DNA from: Phycisphaerae bacterium
GTDB lineage: Bacteria > Planctomycetota > Phycisphaerae > Sedimentisphaerales > Anaerobacaceae
Direction: 5' to 3'
Length of the DNA stretch: 64,000 nucleotides
Assembly (NCBI GenBank): GCA_017993835.1
Contig: JAGOLX010000009.1
Span: forward strand, 62,001 to 126,000
The notes under the pieces were generated by a model. The model did not search any database and was not told where the DNA came from. It worked only from the letters and a program-made list of their open reading frames with translations. A program made the position numbers and the translations under genes. The first letter of the stretch is position 1. Each line of letters begins with the position of its first letter. Shown in pieces: positions 3,338 through 59,551 of the stretch.

Positions 3338-3434
3338 CTCATGCCTGCGTCTTGCACCAGAGCGGCTCAACATGCTTGCCCTGTGCCATCACACGTGCGT
3401 TCCAACTCGCGAGAACACAACAACTTGTGCATTC

Positions 3435-3657
3435 AACCACAGGCAGGTTTTCTGGCTTGCGTCCTACCGAGAGGCTCCTTCCCATTCGCAGGGCGAATAG
3501 TGGATTGGGCGTTCCCCCAGAAGTCAGAGGGCCCGGTGCCTCGGGGATTTCCGAATATTCCTCGGAACAGACGCTCACAGCGGCGCGACCGTCGCGGATT
3601 TTCACCGCGTTCCCATTTGCATATCCCGGAGCCAAAGCTCCGAGACCTGCAGTCGAA
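3435..3657 (-). promoter_or_regulatory. Cobalamin riboswitch aptamer
   Basis: On the minus strand the conserved landmarks appear in the right order: GGTGAAAATCCGCGACGG (family core GGUGaaAAUCCgG), then GCCGCTGTGAG, then GGGAAGGAG, and finally an AGCCAGAAAACCTGCC closing segment that matches the AGUCAGGAgACCUGCC end of the B12 box. The opening AGGT near 3650 can pair with the closing ACCT. Spacing and order fit RF00174. It lies 3' of a strong promoter and 5' of a terminator, so it should switch off the downstream secreted-protein gene when adenosylcobalamin is plentiful. Confidence 0.92.
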
Positions 3658-3684
3658 TCACCTACTTGGCAAAGAACGAGAGCG

Positions 3685-53856: not shown

Positions 53857-55809
53857 CTATTGCAGCCCGACGCGGCCGAAGGAGTAGTAGAAGAAGTAGG
53901 TGGACCCGAAGTCGCGAATCAGGCGGGCGAGCACTTCCTGCTGGTTGTGCGGTTGCAGCGTGTTCTGGACCCGGACGAAGGCGAGGTATCTCTGGAATGT
54001 CTCCGGACGGATGCCGGTTTCGGCCAGATCCACCGTCATCTGCCTGGACCCGTAGTAGACGAGCATCGCCTCCTCGTAGAGGGTCGGCATCCCCTGGTAA
54101 TCGAAGTCGACCAGTCGCTGGATGTTCTTGGCAATCTGGTCCACCTGTCCGGTGAGCAGGTAGCAGGCCATGAGGTACTCGAAGGCCATCTTGTTGTGCG
54201 GGTTCCTCTCGAGCAGTGCGGCCAGGGTCTCGTCGACGGGTTCCGTGCCGGTGATGGCGGTGGTCTGTTCCCACATACAGGAGCGAATCCTGTCGATATA
54301 GGCGGCCTGTTCCGGCGTGAAGCCGCGGTCCAGGCCGCGAAGGAGGGATTCTGCGGTTCCACGGTGGATCAGGTCCTTCCTGAGGGCGTTCAGATAGACC
54401 CGTGCGGTGTCGGCGTGCCCTTTGATGATGCTGATCCACCCCAGTCTCTCGAGCGCGGGACCGAAGTGGCTCTTCGTCGCCAGCAACTCCGAGGCCAGTT
54501 TCTCCGCCATATTGACGTGTCCCAACTCCAGGAAGATGTCGCACAGCTTCTGTTGGGTCAGATCGGATTCCCTCTGTTCGTGCGTCAGCAGCAGTGCGTG
54601 GGGATTCTGGGGATAGCGGAACAGGTCGTAGGGCAGCCGGCCTGTGTGATAGAGAGCGCGGATCAGGTCATGGTTGACGAAGGGATTGTTCCTGTCCTTG
54701 GGCAGGCGACGATTCAGGTCCACAATTCGGCCCCATTGTCCCTGGCGGCAGTAGCAGTTCGACAGGACATAGGGTTTGCGGAGATCATCGTGTCCCAGGT
54801 ACAGACCTAGTGCCATCAATGCGATGGGCAAGGCAGACAGGGCCGCCTTCGCGAAGGCCCACAAGGGTGCTCTCTTCCGCTGTGCCGGAGCGTGTTGGTC
54901 CTTTGCCCTGGTCTTCTTCACGACCGGCTTGGTCTTGTGCTTCCGTCGGATGAGCAGGATCCTGCCGATGAGTACGAGCAAGACGGCCAGGGGGGTTGCG
55001 CCGTAGAGCAGGCACATCAAGACCTTCAGGGGGGTGTCCATGCCCACCATCAGGACCGGCGAGAAAGGCGTGAGGCCGGCCAATGCCTGGCCGCCTGGAA
55101 TGAGGACCACGTATTCCGCGAGCAGCCAGGCGATCGCGACACCCGTGGGCAGGGCGATGCAGGTGGCGAGCCAATCCCTGTGGGCGAGGAACCGCCAGAT
55201 GGCGGTCAGGGTGACGAAAACCAGGAGCGTCCCGCCGCCTCCGATGCAGAAGCCCGCTGCCGCCAGGAGACAGCAGGCCGCGATGCGCGCGAGCGGCTGT
55301 CGCAGGGCCCACCTCTCGAAGGCAAGGGAAAGCAGCAGCCCCAGCGACACCGCCAGGCAGGGGGTCAGAGGGTGCTTGTACTGGCTGTAGATCAGAAACA
55401 GCGCGATGGCCGGGAGGCAGGCCGGGATGGAGGCTCGACGAAGGCCGGCCCGAGCGAGATGCCGCCGAGAGAGTTCCGCGATACAGAAACCAGCCAGAAC
55501 GATCACCACCGCCCCGAGCCAGGCGTGGCAGAATCCCTGCGAGAGCCACCCCGATGCGTAGGCGACGAGTCCGCCCGGCATGCCGGCGCAGTCTCGCAGG
55601 AACGCCCATCCGCCAGCGAACTGGGGGGCATCGGGCAGAATCGTGCCGAATGAGCAGTAGATCAGGTTCGGCTCGACCACGAGCCAGAGGTAGACGAAGG
55701 CCGGTGCGAAGAACAGAAGGTAGGAAGGTGAGAAGGTCAGAAGGTCGGAGGTTCCGACTCGGTTCCCTGACTCCAGCACGACTCCTTTATCTTCGTGTCT
55801 GATGGCCAT
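53857..55809 (-). CDS. DUF6057-like multispanning membrane protein
   Basis: 650 residues. About ten helices up to residue 360 (YLLFFAPAFVYLWLVVEPNL, AWLGAVVIVLAGFCIAELS, IPACLPAIALFLIYSQYKHP, ALPIALMALGLYLGHD), then a soluble C-terminal region of helical, TPR-like hairpins (ILELGHVNMAEKLASELLAT-type, AYIDRIRSCMWEQ, MAFEYLMACYLLTGQVDQIA). DUF6057 has no assigned function. The start is one base after the stop of the heme/propeller lipoprotein gene, indicating tight coupling. Confidence 0.75.
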   Translation of the reverse strand: MAIRHEDKGVVLESGNRVGTSDLLTFSPSYLLFFAPAFVYLWLVVEPNLIYCSFGTILPDAPQFAGGWAFLRDCAGMPGGLVAYASGWLSQGFCHAWLGAVVIVLAGFCIAELSRRHLARAGLRRASIPACLPAIALFLIYSQYKHPLTPCLAVSLGLLLSLAFERWALRQPLARIAACCLLAAAGFCIGGGGTLLVFVTLTAIWRFLAHRDWLATCIALPTGVAIAWLLAEYVVLIPGGQALAGLTPFSPVLMVGMDTPLKVLMCLLYGATPLAVLLVLIGRILLIRRKHKTKPVVKKTRAKDQHAPAQRKRAPLWAFAKAALSALPIALMALGLYLGHDDLRKPYVLSNCYCRQGQWGRIVDLNRRLPKDRNNPFVNHDLIRALYHTGRLPYDLFRYPQNPHALLLTHEQRESDLTQQKLCDIFLELGHVNMAEKLASELLATKSHFGPALERLGWISIIKGHADTARVYLNALRKDLIHRGTAESLLRGLDRGFTPEQAAYIDRIRSCMWEQTTAITGTEPVDETLAALLERNPHNKMAFEYLMACYLLTGQVDQIAKNIQRLVDFDYQGMPTLYEEAMLVYYGSRQMTVDLAETGIRPETFQRYLAFVRVQNTLQPHNQQEVLARLIRDFGSTYFFYYSFGRVGLQ

Positions 55810-55810
55810 T

Positions 55811-57358
55811 CTACTCGCGTTCCTTCCACGGATCGGACGGCGCCGCCTTCGGGCTGGCGCCGGTGATGGGAATCGCAGGCGTCACGGAAGGTCTGGACCG
55901 GGACGCACGGGCCAGACGCGATGGACTCACTCTGATGGGCCCGTTGACCAGTTCGGGAGCGCTGTACGTCTCGAGCAGCGAGTCGTAGTAGGTCGGGTCC
56001 CGCTGGGGCAGGACGAAGGGCTTGTGAGCGATCCCCTCGCTGTCCACATAGCTCAGATACGTCCGGGTGAACAGTCCTCCCTGGCGCTTGCTGCTGAAGG
56101 CGATCCACCGGCTGTTGCTCGACCAACTGTGCCAGGATTCCGAGAACTCACTACTAACCGATAGCTTGTGAAATTGCCTGTCCGCGGAGGCGAGATCCAT
56201 GATGTACAGGTCGCTGCTGGGCTGGTAGACGGGGAAGCAGCCGTAGTCGCACATGCAGAAGAGGAGGAATCGCCCATCCGGCGAGATCCTGGGCAACAGG
56301 ATGCTCCGGCCCGTCTGCTCAGCGGAAAGGACGGTCTCGGCCCGGCCCCACTGGTCCGTCGCGGCGTCGTAGGCGATCCGCCGCAGATCGTAGCGGAGCT
56401 TCTCGTAGTTCTCAGGCGGGACGGTGTTGCGATCCTTCCACAAGATCGGGGCACTGCAGTAGTAAAGGTATCTGCCGTCCGGAGACCACGCCGGATAGGT
56501 CTCGAGTCGGTCCTTGTCGGCCAGTTCCTTCGGGCTGGTCGCCTTCCGGTCCTCCACCCGGTAGCAGAGCAGCGCCGAGTCCAGGTCGGCTACGTCTCGG
56601 ACCTCCATCCCGCCGGCGTGGAAGAACTGCGTCACCTTGTTGATCGAGTACACCGCGAGGGCACCGCTGGGGTGCCAGGCGGTGTACCCCCACTTGGCGC
56701 CGATCCGGTCCACAACGCCATCGTGGGCCAGGAGGGTATCGCTGCCGTAGGTGGCGCTTCGCAAGGCGATCGACAGCGTATCCGGGTTATTGCCCACGAA
56801 ACTGTGGCAGTTCAGGCATCCGCCGCCGAAAGACCGCCCGTGCAGGAGGACGGACGTGTTGAAATCCGCCAGCGTGCGCTGGTAGATGCCGATTTGACGC
56901 CACCAGTTGTAGAGGGGCTTCATGAATCGGAATACCAGCGTCCCGTCGATGTCCTCCTGGGCAACGGTGTTGGCGATGGGCAGGAACCGCGTCCACTGGC
57001 GATCCGCGTCCTGCACGCACACATCGATGAAGATGTCCTTTCCTCGATTGGCGTCGAGCAGGGCGTGCCAAGGGCGAATGGGGATGCGAACGCGGCCTGA
57101 CTTGCTGAAGATTCGGATGGGCTGCCCCTGGTCGGAGCGGATCACGACGAGGTACGCCCGTCCGGCGTCCAGAATCCGGAAGTTCAGGGGGGCGATATTG
57201 GCGGGTACAGTAACCCCGGCGTGGTCAGGACTGATTGTGGGTGCTCTGCCGACCTCGCGGCATTGCCCGATGGCTCTTGGACGGCAGGACACAGTGCCCG
57301 CCCCCGCGAGGATGAGCGTACTCAAGAAGACGATTCTGCCGGCGAGTCGTGTTCTCAT
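55811..57358 (-). CDS. Lipoprotein with c-type heme motif and WD40/PD40-like beta-propeller
   Basis: 515 residues. The signal ends in a lipobox-like sequence (LILAGAGTVSC). C181-L-N-C184-H is a c-type heme-attachment motif in GGGCLNCHSFVGNN. Propeller repeats of the TolB/PD40 kind follow: YTAWHPSGALAVYSINKVTQ, YPAWSPDGRYLYYCSAP, LPRISPDGRFLLFCMCDYG, WSSNSRWIAFSSKRQGG. It may link electron transfer to surface scaffolding or substrate recognition. The gene is preceded by a promoter and a terminator-containing leader and followed at once by DUF6057. Confidence 0.78.
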   Translation of the reverse strand: MRTRLAGRIVFLSTLILAGAGTVSCRPRAIGQCREVGRAPTISPDHAGVTVPANIAPLNFRILDAGRAYLVVIRSDQGQPIRIFSKSGRVRIPIRPWHALLDANRGKDIFIDVCVQDADRQWTRFLPIANTVAQEDIDGTLVFRFMKPLYNWWRQIGIYQRTLADFNTSVLLHGRSFGGGCLNCHSFVGNNPDTLSIALRSATYGSDTLLAHDGVVDRIGAKWGYTAWHPSGALAVYSINKVTQFFHAGGMEVRDVADLDSALLCYRVEDRKATSPKELADKDRLETYPAWSPDGRYLYYCSAPILWKDRNTVPPENYEKLRYDLRRIAYDAATDQWGRAETVLSAEQTGRSILLPRISPDGRFLLFCMCDYGCFPVYQPSSDLYIMDLASADRQFHKLSVSSEFSESWHSWSSNSRWIAFSSKRQGGLFTRTYLSYVDSEGIAHKPFVLPQRDPTYYDSLLETYSAPELVNGPIRVSPSRLARASRSRPSVTPAIPITGASPKAAPSDPWKERE

Positions 57359-57384: not shown

Positions 57385-57442
57385 TATAAAAAAGAAGCCC
57401 CCGCTTTTTGATGAGGGAGAGGAAGCGAGACTATGCGGGGGC
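57385..57442 (-). terminator. Leader terminator/attenuator of the heme/propeller gene
   Basis: On the minus strand GCCCCCGC (57442-57435) pairs perfectly with GCGGGGGC (57404-57397) around a 30-base loop, followed by TTCTTTTTTAT. It lies within the first 90 bases of the transcript from the promoter at 57479-57507 and before the coding start at 57358. It could end a small RNA or act as an attenuator. Confidence 0.65.
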
Positions 57443-57456
57443 CTGTGGACGAATTT

Positions 57457-57478
57457 AGTTTTTTGTTCTCTAAAAACT
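57457..57478 (-). other. 5' stem-loop at the predicted transcript start
   Basis: AGTTTTT and AAAAACT arms around a short loop form an AU-only hairpin at the predicted 5' end of the leader RNA, upstream of the terminator-like stem. Confidence 0.4.
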
Positions 57479-57507
57479 ATCGTATCCGATGCCGATACCG
57501 AAGTCAA
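57479..57507 (-). promoter_or_regulatory. Promoter of the heme/propeller operon leader
   Basis: TTGACT (57502-57507) and TACGAT (57479-57484) on the minus strand, spacer 17 bases; transcription would start near 57472. Confidence 0.65.
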
Positions 57508-57857: not shown

Positions 57858-58259
57858 ATGGCCGAGAAGAGTCAATGTGGGAGGTGTACGGGTCTGTGTT
57901 GCCGGTATTTTGCGCTGCCGATCGACACGCCCGGGACCCGGAAGGACTACGATGACATACGCTGGTACCTCTGCCATGAGGACATCACGGTCTTCGTCGA
58001 AAAGGGCGACTGGTACCTCAACGTGAAGAACAAGTGCCGCCATCTGTCCGAGAAGGGGCATCTGTGCCGGATCTATGATCGACGACCGCAGATCTGCCGC
58101 AAGTACAAACACGCGGACTGTGACTTCACCCCGGGCGAGTACGACTACGAACTGCATTTCACCAACGACCGGGAGATGGAAGAGTACATCCGCGTGAAAT
58201 TCGACAACAACATCAGCGAAAAGCGCACAACTGGCAAGTCCAAAGGACGCAGAGCATGA
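57858..58259 (+). CDS. YkgJ-family cysteine cluster protein
   Basis: 133 residues from ATG 57858 (AGGAA upstream). Cysteines are arranged as in the YkgJ/Zn- or Fe-binding cluster: CGRCTGLCCRYF near the start, then KCRHLSEKGHLCRIYDRRPQ and ICRKYKHADC. The function of the family is unclear; it may bind zinc or an iron-sulfur cluster. It overlaps the hisS start by four bases, so the two proteins are made together. Confidence 0.88.
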   Translation: MAEKSQCGRCTGLCCRYFALPIDTPGTRKDYDDIRWYLCHEDITVFVEKGDWYLNVKNKCRHLSEKGHLCRIYDRRPQICRKYKHADCDFTPGEYDYELHFTNDREMEEYIRVKFDNNISEKRTTGKSKGRRA

Positions 58260-59551
58260 AGATAGCTCCGGTCAAAGGAACGAGGGATTTCTATCCGCCG
58301 CAGATGGCCCGGCGCAACTGGATCATCGACGGGTGGAAGAAGGTCTCCCAACGCAACGGCTTCGAGGAATACGACGGCCCGATCTTCGAGCACCTGCAGA
58401 TGTACCAGGTCAAGAGCGGCGATGAGATCGTCGAACAGCTCTTCTCCCTTCAAGATCGCGGCGGGCGGGAGCTGGCGATCCGCCCGGAGATCACGCCCAC
58501 GCTGGCACGCATGGTCAACCAGCAGATCAACGCGCTGCCCCGCCCGATCAAATGGTTCAGCGTCCCGCGATTGTGCCGGGCGGAGCGGCCACAGAAAGGG
58601 CGGCTTCGCGAGTTCTTCCAATGGAACGTCGATATCATCGGCGAGGATCGGGCCGACGCGGATGCGGAGATCATCTTCACGACCTTGGACTACCTCCGCA
58701 CGGTCGGTCTGACCGCCAAGGACATCCGGGCCAAGATCTCGAGTCGCCGACTCCTGGCGGCGGTCCTCACCAGCATCGGGCTCCCGGCGGAGCGTCTGGA
58801 CCCGATCTACGCGGTCCTGGACAAGAAACCGAAGCTGCCGGCGGAGACTTTCGAGGCCCTGCTGGCCGAACAGGTGCCCGACAAGACCCAGGCCGGGAAG
58901 ATCCTCGGTTTCATGGCCCTCGACTCGGTGGAGGGAGTCGCGCAGATTGTCCAGCCCGACGAGACCCTGGGCAAGGCGGTCGACGAACTCCGGGGCGTCC
59001 TCGCGGTTCTGAACTCCATGGGGATGGGCGAGTACTGCGGGTTTGATCCGGGCATCGTCCGCGGCCTGGCGTACTACACGGGGGTCGTTTTCGAAGTGCA
59101 CGACATCGCGGGCGAACTGCGAGCGATCTGCGGCGGCGGGCGCTATGACAACCTGTTGCGGGACTTCGGCGGTCCGCCCGTCGGCGCGACGGGCATGGGC
59201 ATGGGCGACTGCGTCCTGGAGATCCTGCTGGAGCAGCGAGGCCTGCTCGATGCCCAGGTCCCGAAACGGACCATCGACTACTTCGTGGCCGTCGCGGACC
59301 CGCAGGTGGCCGAGGCGATGTACTGGGTCGTCGCCCAGATTCGTTCGAAGGGCCGCTCCGCGAGCTTCAGCTACAAGCAGGGCGGCCTGTCGAAGCAACT
59401 GAAGGAAGCGGTAGCCCAGAACGCGGCCAAGTGCGTGATTCTCGGCCAGGAGTACCGGGACAGCCGGCAAGTGGTGGCCAAGGACATGGCCACAGGCACC
59501 CAGGAAACCCTGGACGTGGACCAGTTCCTGTCGCGACTGGCCGGCGGCTGA
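58256..59551 (+). CDS. hisS: Histidyl-tRNA synthetase
   Basis: 431 residues, normal length. Class II features: motif 1 region KGTRDFYPPQMARRNWIIDG, motif 2 RAERPQKGRLREFFQWNVDI, the histidine-specific GLAYYTGVVFEVHDI and motif 3 GATGMGMGDCVLEILLE, plus a C-terminal anticodon-binding domain (RSKGRSASFSYKQGGLSKQL). It charges tRNA-His. Translationally coupled to the YkgJ-like gene. Confidence 0.97.
   Translation: MKIAPVKGTRDFYPPQMARRNWIIDGWKKVSQRNGFEEYDGPIFEHLQMYQVKSGDEIVEQLFSLQDRGGRELAIRPEITPTLARMVNQQINALPRPIKWFSVPRLCRAERPQKGRLREFFQWNVDIIGEDRADADAEIIFTTLDYLRTVGLTAKDIRAKISSRRLLAAVLTSIGLPAERLDPIYAVLDKKPKLPAETFEALLAEQVPDKTQAGKILGFMALDSVEGVAQIVQPDETLGKAVDELRGVLAVLNSMGMGEYCGFDPGIVRGLAYYTGVVFEVHDIAGELRAICGGGRYDNLLRDFGGPPVGATGMGMGDCVLEILLEQRGLLDAQVPKRTIDYFVAVADPQVAEAMYWVVAQIRSKGRSASFSYKQGGLSKQLKEAVAQNAAKCVILGQEYRDSRQVVAKDMATGTQETLDVDQFLSRLAGG

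Follow-up and report, generated by a model that had tools for sequence, protein, structure and literature searches.

The hairpin found upstream of a gene for PD40 propeller repeats in the stretch of Phycisphaerae DNA analyzed here (hereafter the window, that is, the whole stretch of 64,000 nucleotides) is, in our opinion, probably one copy of a multicopy family of sibling small RNAs (sRNAs), whose members would have their own promoters and terminators and would pair in trans through their loop. At the level of sequence, the comparison across genomes demonstrates the existence of the family, the covariation of its stems, the constancy of its loop, the enrichment of promoters upstream of its copies, and its independence from the downstream gene; the constant loop on changing stems looks like a shared regulatory signal. 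In the window, the element is read from the minus strand, where a sigma-70-like promoter (57507-57479) is followed by a stem, a pyrimidine-rich loop, and a U-run. Its parts and the neighbouring genes are the following:

57502..57507, minus strand: -35 hexamer TTGACT, with an equivalent arrangement in 43/83 chromosomal copies
57479..57484, minus strand: -10 hexamer TACGAT, separated by a 17-nt spacer from the -35 hexamer; start site expected at ~57472
~57385..57472, minus strand: predicted small RNA of ~85 nt (type-A copy, 3' end expected at ~57387), from the promoter and terminator positions and the match to the covariance model R2
57435..57444, minus strand: 5' arm of the terminator stem, AGGCCCCCGC
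57413..57432, minus strand: constant loop core AGUCUCGCUUCCUCUCCCUC, with 3 exact copies in the genome and at most one mismatch in 9/9 genomes of the genus
57395..57404, minus strand: 3' arm of the terminator stem, GCGGGGGCUU
57388..57394, minus strand: U-run CUUUUUU
55811..57358, minus strand: downstream gene with PD40 propeller repeats and a CxxCH motif, not needed for the presence of the RNA
53857-55809, minus strand: DUF6057 protein (PF19529), behind the PD40 gene
57861..58259, plus strand: divergent ykgJ-like gene (PF03692), a constant neighbour
58256..59551, plus strand: hisS, a constant neighbour behind ykgJ

The promoter, which the initial annotation called consensus-like, is present, but its 9/12 match to the consensus makes it fair rather than strong. 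The 8-bp GC stem proposed there holds and is extended to 10 bp by a G-U and an A-U pair added to the 8 G-C pairs, and the 30-nt loop and the U-run are as originally described. The 64-nt hairpin has a folding energy of -19.0 kcal/mol (z = -3.18), a stability that 0/200 shuffled sequences equalled; it escaped a simple terminator scanner whose loop length is limited to 3-8 nt. The AU hairpin assigned to the leader also exists. Its 5' arm (57479-57472), however, occupies the interval from the -10 box to the expected start site and overlaps the promoter/start region, so that the hairpin is probably not transcribed in full; moreover, no such hairpin was observed ahead of the remaining type-A copies that were read.

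When the 123-base stretch carrying the element was compared with the whole genome, two more places were found, the match being limited to the loop region; both loci carry the loop of the window copy on different stems. The genome has three exact copies of the 19-nt loop GTCTCGCTTCCTCTCCCTC and one more site at 3 mismatches, and an 18-nt loop core is present, with at most one mismatch, in all nine genomes of the genus. The window hairpin is not a product of chance, since its loop recurs on other stems, within the genome as well as across the family. The loop core can be written as UCUCGCUU-(Y)n-CCUCUCCCUC, and the covariance model R2 places it on differing stems in five copies in the window genome, the window copy itself being matched at 57448-57385 with 72.1 bits.

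A scan of GTDB 220 (one genome per species) with the loop pattern returned 48 stretches, 45 of which come from metagenome-assembled genomes labelled Planctomycetota, Phycisphaerae, Phycisphaerales or Sedimentisphaerales, while the three from elsewhere (L037, L059, L083) all lack a stem; these three and L036, another stemless genome match, were set aside as chance. The covariance model R1, built from 29 distinct hairpins, matched 71/89 genomes of the taxonomic family and added diverged copies, whose loop consists of UCUCGCUU, a few extra pyrimidines, and CCUCUCCCUC. The wider model R2 matched 83/161 genomes of the order. Within the family of the window, 81 of the 89 genomes have 1-15 R2 matches each, for a total of 337 (median 3, maximum 15); the other families of the order yielded one weak match each in 2/72 genomes (E 1.4e-4 and 1.9e-4), and a phylum sample of 294 genomes yielded the own genome plus 2 weak matches among the other 293. 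One of the weak matches outside the family (L198) is an ordinary terminator whose stem is similar and whose loop is short.

One helix was modelled, and that helix covaries. In a MAFFT alignment of 29 sequences, two-sided changes affect 10 of 11 pairs, with a covariation of 0.416 vs 0.151 in shuffled alignments. The R2 alignment of 100 matches, which leans to structure since it was fitted to the model, has two-sided changes in all 11 pairs (157 cells, 94.6% of cells being paired) and a score of 0.456 vs 0.130, reached by 0/500 shuffles. Of 111 candidate loci, 100 were given to the model, L035, L036, L037, L059, L083, L188, L190, L193, L194, L196, and L197 being left out. The covariation across homologous loci that the initial annotation had suggested checking is strong in the stem. 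The 100 matches have 42 different 5' arms (4 of them gapped), and UCUCGC-Yn-CUCUCC(C)U is kept in 95/100 loops, a constancy that is overstated for the copies retrieved by the exact loop pattern, the model-found copies having a variable pyrimidine linker. This linker, between UCUCGCUU and CCUCUC, differs in length among copies, and loops range from 24 to 39 nt in most of them. The covariation of the stem is equally expected of RNA and DNA hairpins, and hence it is not decisive between the two.

The copies keep their own neighbours, at a varying distance from the downstream gene. Those of type A adjoin the divergent ykgJ-hisS pair in all 14 genomes compared, hisS being visible in two of them only via a second locus of the same place. 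Judging from a reading of the sequence rather than from a family search, type-D copies lie between a divergent rubrerythrin-like gene and rex, and type-C copies adjoin a divergent ACT-domain gene. Downstream of the type-C copies, some genomes have an ECF sigma gene and others do not; in three genomes these copies are beside neither of these two genes.

A sigma-70-like promoter precedes 43/83 chromosomal copies (in 100 shuffled sets the count averaged 4.75 and never exceeded 9), and the other 40 lack one at the threshold used; upstream sequence was sufficient in 96/99 distinct rows, one N-containing row having been dropped earlier. In 30 of these 43 cases, 17-24 nt separate the end of the -10 box from the stem. 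At least six T within the 10 bases 3' of the stem were counted in 51/83 copies, a count that omits the rows of L119, L120, L070, L031, and L189. A second arrangement, GAAC-N16/17-CGTN, which we take to be an ECF-type promoter, stands upstream of 10/10 type-D rows and of 14/96 rows overall (control mean 1.3, maximum 7); the type-D loci, belonging to two genera, have it as GAAC-N16/17-CGTA (L046, L054, L057, L060, L063, L069, L071, L081, L135, L220). For three type-D rows, a distance of 103-107 nt separates the stem from the first GAAC match; a closer match also exists in two of these rows, and the type-D copy of the window genome has the distant one only. Judging from the predicted promoters, the copies thus share the loop but not the promoter. 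As expected of sibling sRNAs, the copies appear to have independent promoters and terminators, and several loci per genome share one common unpaired recognition sequence. An sRNA of about 85 nt, one of the two possibilities raised initially, is in agreement with these sequence data, that is, its own promoter, its own terminator, the covariation of the stem, and the paralogues and orthologues at other loci.

On these bases, we infer that RNA is produced from these loci and that it acts in trans via base pairing. Each copy would be transcribed from its own promoter and stop at its own terminator, and in most cases the RNA would comprise little beyond a terminator hairpin with a pyrimidine-rich loop of 24-39 nt. 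The loop (UCUCGCUU, the variable pyrimidine linker, and CCUCUCCCUC) would be the active part, and the role of the stem might be restricted to displaying it and ending transcription. The copy-specific promoters (housekeeping-type in the window copy, ECF-type near rex) would bring several inputs to one output. Most likely, the loop would pair in trans with mRNA sites rich in purines, for instance Shine-Dalgarno regions, and neither Hfq nor ProQ would take part. Neither Hfq (PF17209) nor ProQ/FinO (PF04352) was found in the 21 genomes searched, namely, the own one and its relatives (as controls, Hfq was detected in 5/14 known genomes and ProQ/FinO in 1/14, E. coli); therefore, pairing would be chaperone-free or would occur via another protein.

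The search for targets gave no complementary class. Loop complementarity at 518 crudely called gene starts in 855 kb of the own genome did not exceed that of shuffled loops, in a test of low power that relied on rough gene calls and covered ~0.86 Mb of one genome. The pattern GAGGGAGAGG-N2-12-ATG had 21 non-RNA sites in 9 genomes vs 13 for the reversed control, a result that does not amount to enrichment. A search of the whole genome for a long antisense partner of the 19-nt loop, allowing 3 mismatches at most, found none apart from one site with 3 mismatches. Since the crude target test gave no support, the pairing mechanism is one that we infer; the failed tests weaken it and leave in play the binding of a protein.

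According to this second explanation, to which we attribute a small but real probability, the partner of the exposed YC-rich loop would be an RNA-binding protein (Rho, a cold-shock protein or one specific to the lineage), which the copies would titrate in the way that CsrB titrates CsrA. The constancy of the loop despite the outcome of the target searches is in favour of this possibility, together with the varying length of the linker from UCUCGCUU to CCUCUC, which would be compatible with two distinct sites, and with the phage-borne copies, which keep stem and loop without the promoter. A longer variant class also repeats UCUCGC two or three times, but it includes only four loci, and it fits either pairing or a decoy.

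A related and doubtful conjecture is that of a chaperone-free signal of the lineage, in which many promoters, including a stress-type (ECF) one, would feed RNAs with a single 20-25-nt loop as their only common part, titrating a global RNA-binding factor (for example, Rho or a new protein), and phages would carry the loop as a decoy or mimic. In IMG/VR, the gapped loop pattern retrieved 19 stretches, 14 of which (13 distinct) have the loop on a good stem; the other five (L188, L190, L193, L194, L196) lack a stem and were set aside as chance. The contigs with good but differing stems are L085-L090, L184/L195, L185, L186, L187, L189, L191, and L192, and none of the 13 distinct copies has a promoter by the criterion used for chromosomal copies. 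The proteins tested on L085, L086, and L088 match phage tail families and, in L086 and L088, also to integrase families; the phage and plasmid record collections searched gave no match. The phage hairpins may be decoys, terminators or attachment sites.

The last of these functions, extended to the whole family, would make the loop a DNA recombination site (a phage attachment site) inside a terminator. We consider this very improbable: the 13 distinct viral contigs do have the loop on differing stems, and an integrase gene lies just downstream in parallel orientation in 5 of them, but no clear chimeric or half-site copies were seen among the chromosomal loci read, the stem-loop was near 0/13 related integrase loci from 12 host genomes, and promoters precede 43/83 chromosomal copies.

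Equally hard to sustain is the other possibility raised in the initial annotation, an attenuator or riboswitch that acts in cis on the heme/propeller operon downstream. The window terminator is located ~30 nt before the start codon, and a PD40 homologue follows the type-A hairpin in 6/14 genomes (G000, G001, G006, G426, G427, G428). In the other 8 (G002, G003, G005, G007, G008, G429, G430, G453), however, the hairpin is nearly unchanged beside ykgJ-hisS and the homologue is absent from the downstream sequence at the type-A loci listed (837-7209 nt), which contradicts attenuation as a general function. Membership in a leader/attenuator class, with the hairpin always upstream of one gene, was rejected for the same reason. 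The paralogues near rex lie 439-2364 nt before it, and no aptamer-like structured part is apparent; covariation was seen in the one helix modelled, and what is conserved seems to be an unpaired constant loop rather than a folded aptamer. At gathering score, Rfam 15 matched the whole window only with a Cobalamin riboswitch at 3425-3665 (minus strand, 73.8 bits) and did not match any of 17 loci with family members; a permissive local search gave chance-level matches only. Of the initial interpretation, then, the sRNA half is supported and the attenuator half is not.

A dispersed repeat (REP/MITE-like) with no regulatory role would account for the many copies per genome, but it can hardly be reconciled with copies that adjoin the same genes across genera, covarying stems, sequence sharing mainly limited to the loop core, and promoters at a set distance.

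Concerning known systems, Yfr1, alpha-r14/NfeR1, the CcsR cuckoo RNAs, and csRNAs likewise have a short single-stranded motif that is conserved, rich in pyrimidines, and similar to an anti-Shine-Dalgarno sequence; they differ from the window family in lineage and architecture. No description of this sRNA family was found in the open-access literature of PubMed Central; thus, the family is apparently undescribed so far, though of a known type, that is, small RNAs present in multiple copies whose recognition loop is C/U-rich. In Helicobacter pylori, the C/U-rich terminator loop of RepG is sufficient for regulation (PMC8295292), and the consulted parts of that article do not mention Hfq. The window family likewise has a C/U-rich terminator loop, but the resemblance is one of architecture, not homology: RepG has two stem-loops and targets a homopolymeric G-repeat, whereas the window family is multicopy and has mostly one stem-loop. 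Five copies of LhrC exist in Listeria monocytogenes; the terminator loop is one of their CU-rich sites, and LhrC blocks a Shine-Dalgarno sequence, Hfq not being required for the lapB effect (PMC4132741). The likeness lies in the multiple copies and in the CU-rich site of the terminator loop; however, each LhrC RNA has three redundant sites with a UCCC motif and one two-component system is needed for all copies, whereas the window family has mostly one loop and promoters that differ per copy. Membership in the LhrC family, which requires three CU-rich sites, was rejected for the window copy, which has one loop. By the precedent of RepG and LhrC, a long pyrimidine loop would be expected to pair with purine-rich leader sites. 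The Neisseria sibling sRNAs are likewise paralogous small RNAs called siblings, but of another sequence and another phylum.

An RNA present across the family, with a loop that hardly varies, numerous copies, and promoters that differ per copy, offers a testable entry into RNA regulation in a group known here almost solely from metagenome-assembled genomes; the relatives tested lack Hfq and ProQ. That the loop also matters to phages is suggested by the phage-borne copies.

Some minor observations can be added. Several genomes retain the PD40-DUF6057 pair downstream of the RNA, and at L072/L134 (G427) the homologues of both genes are matched only piecemeal, as if decayed, beside an intact RNA. 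The longer relatives, with bulged stems, are L070:768-847, L119:1474-1545, L120:1453-1531, and L031:1471-1539; UCUCGC is found again near the 5' end in the first three and also after the stem in L120, and L031 is a weaker member of the class. Lastly, L147 (G010:C318) harbors three family members, all located on one strand and within 1.2 kb; in two of them the loop lacks UCUCGCUU but keeps CU-rich repeats.
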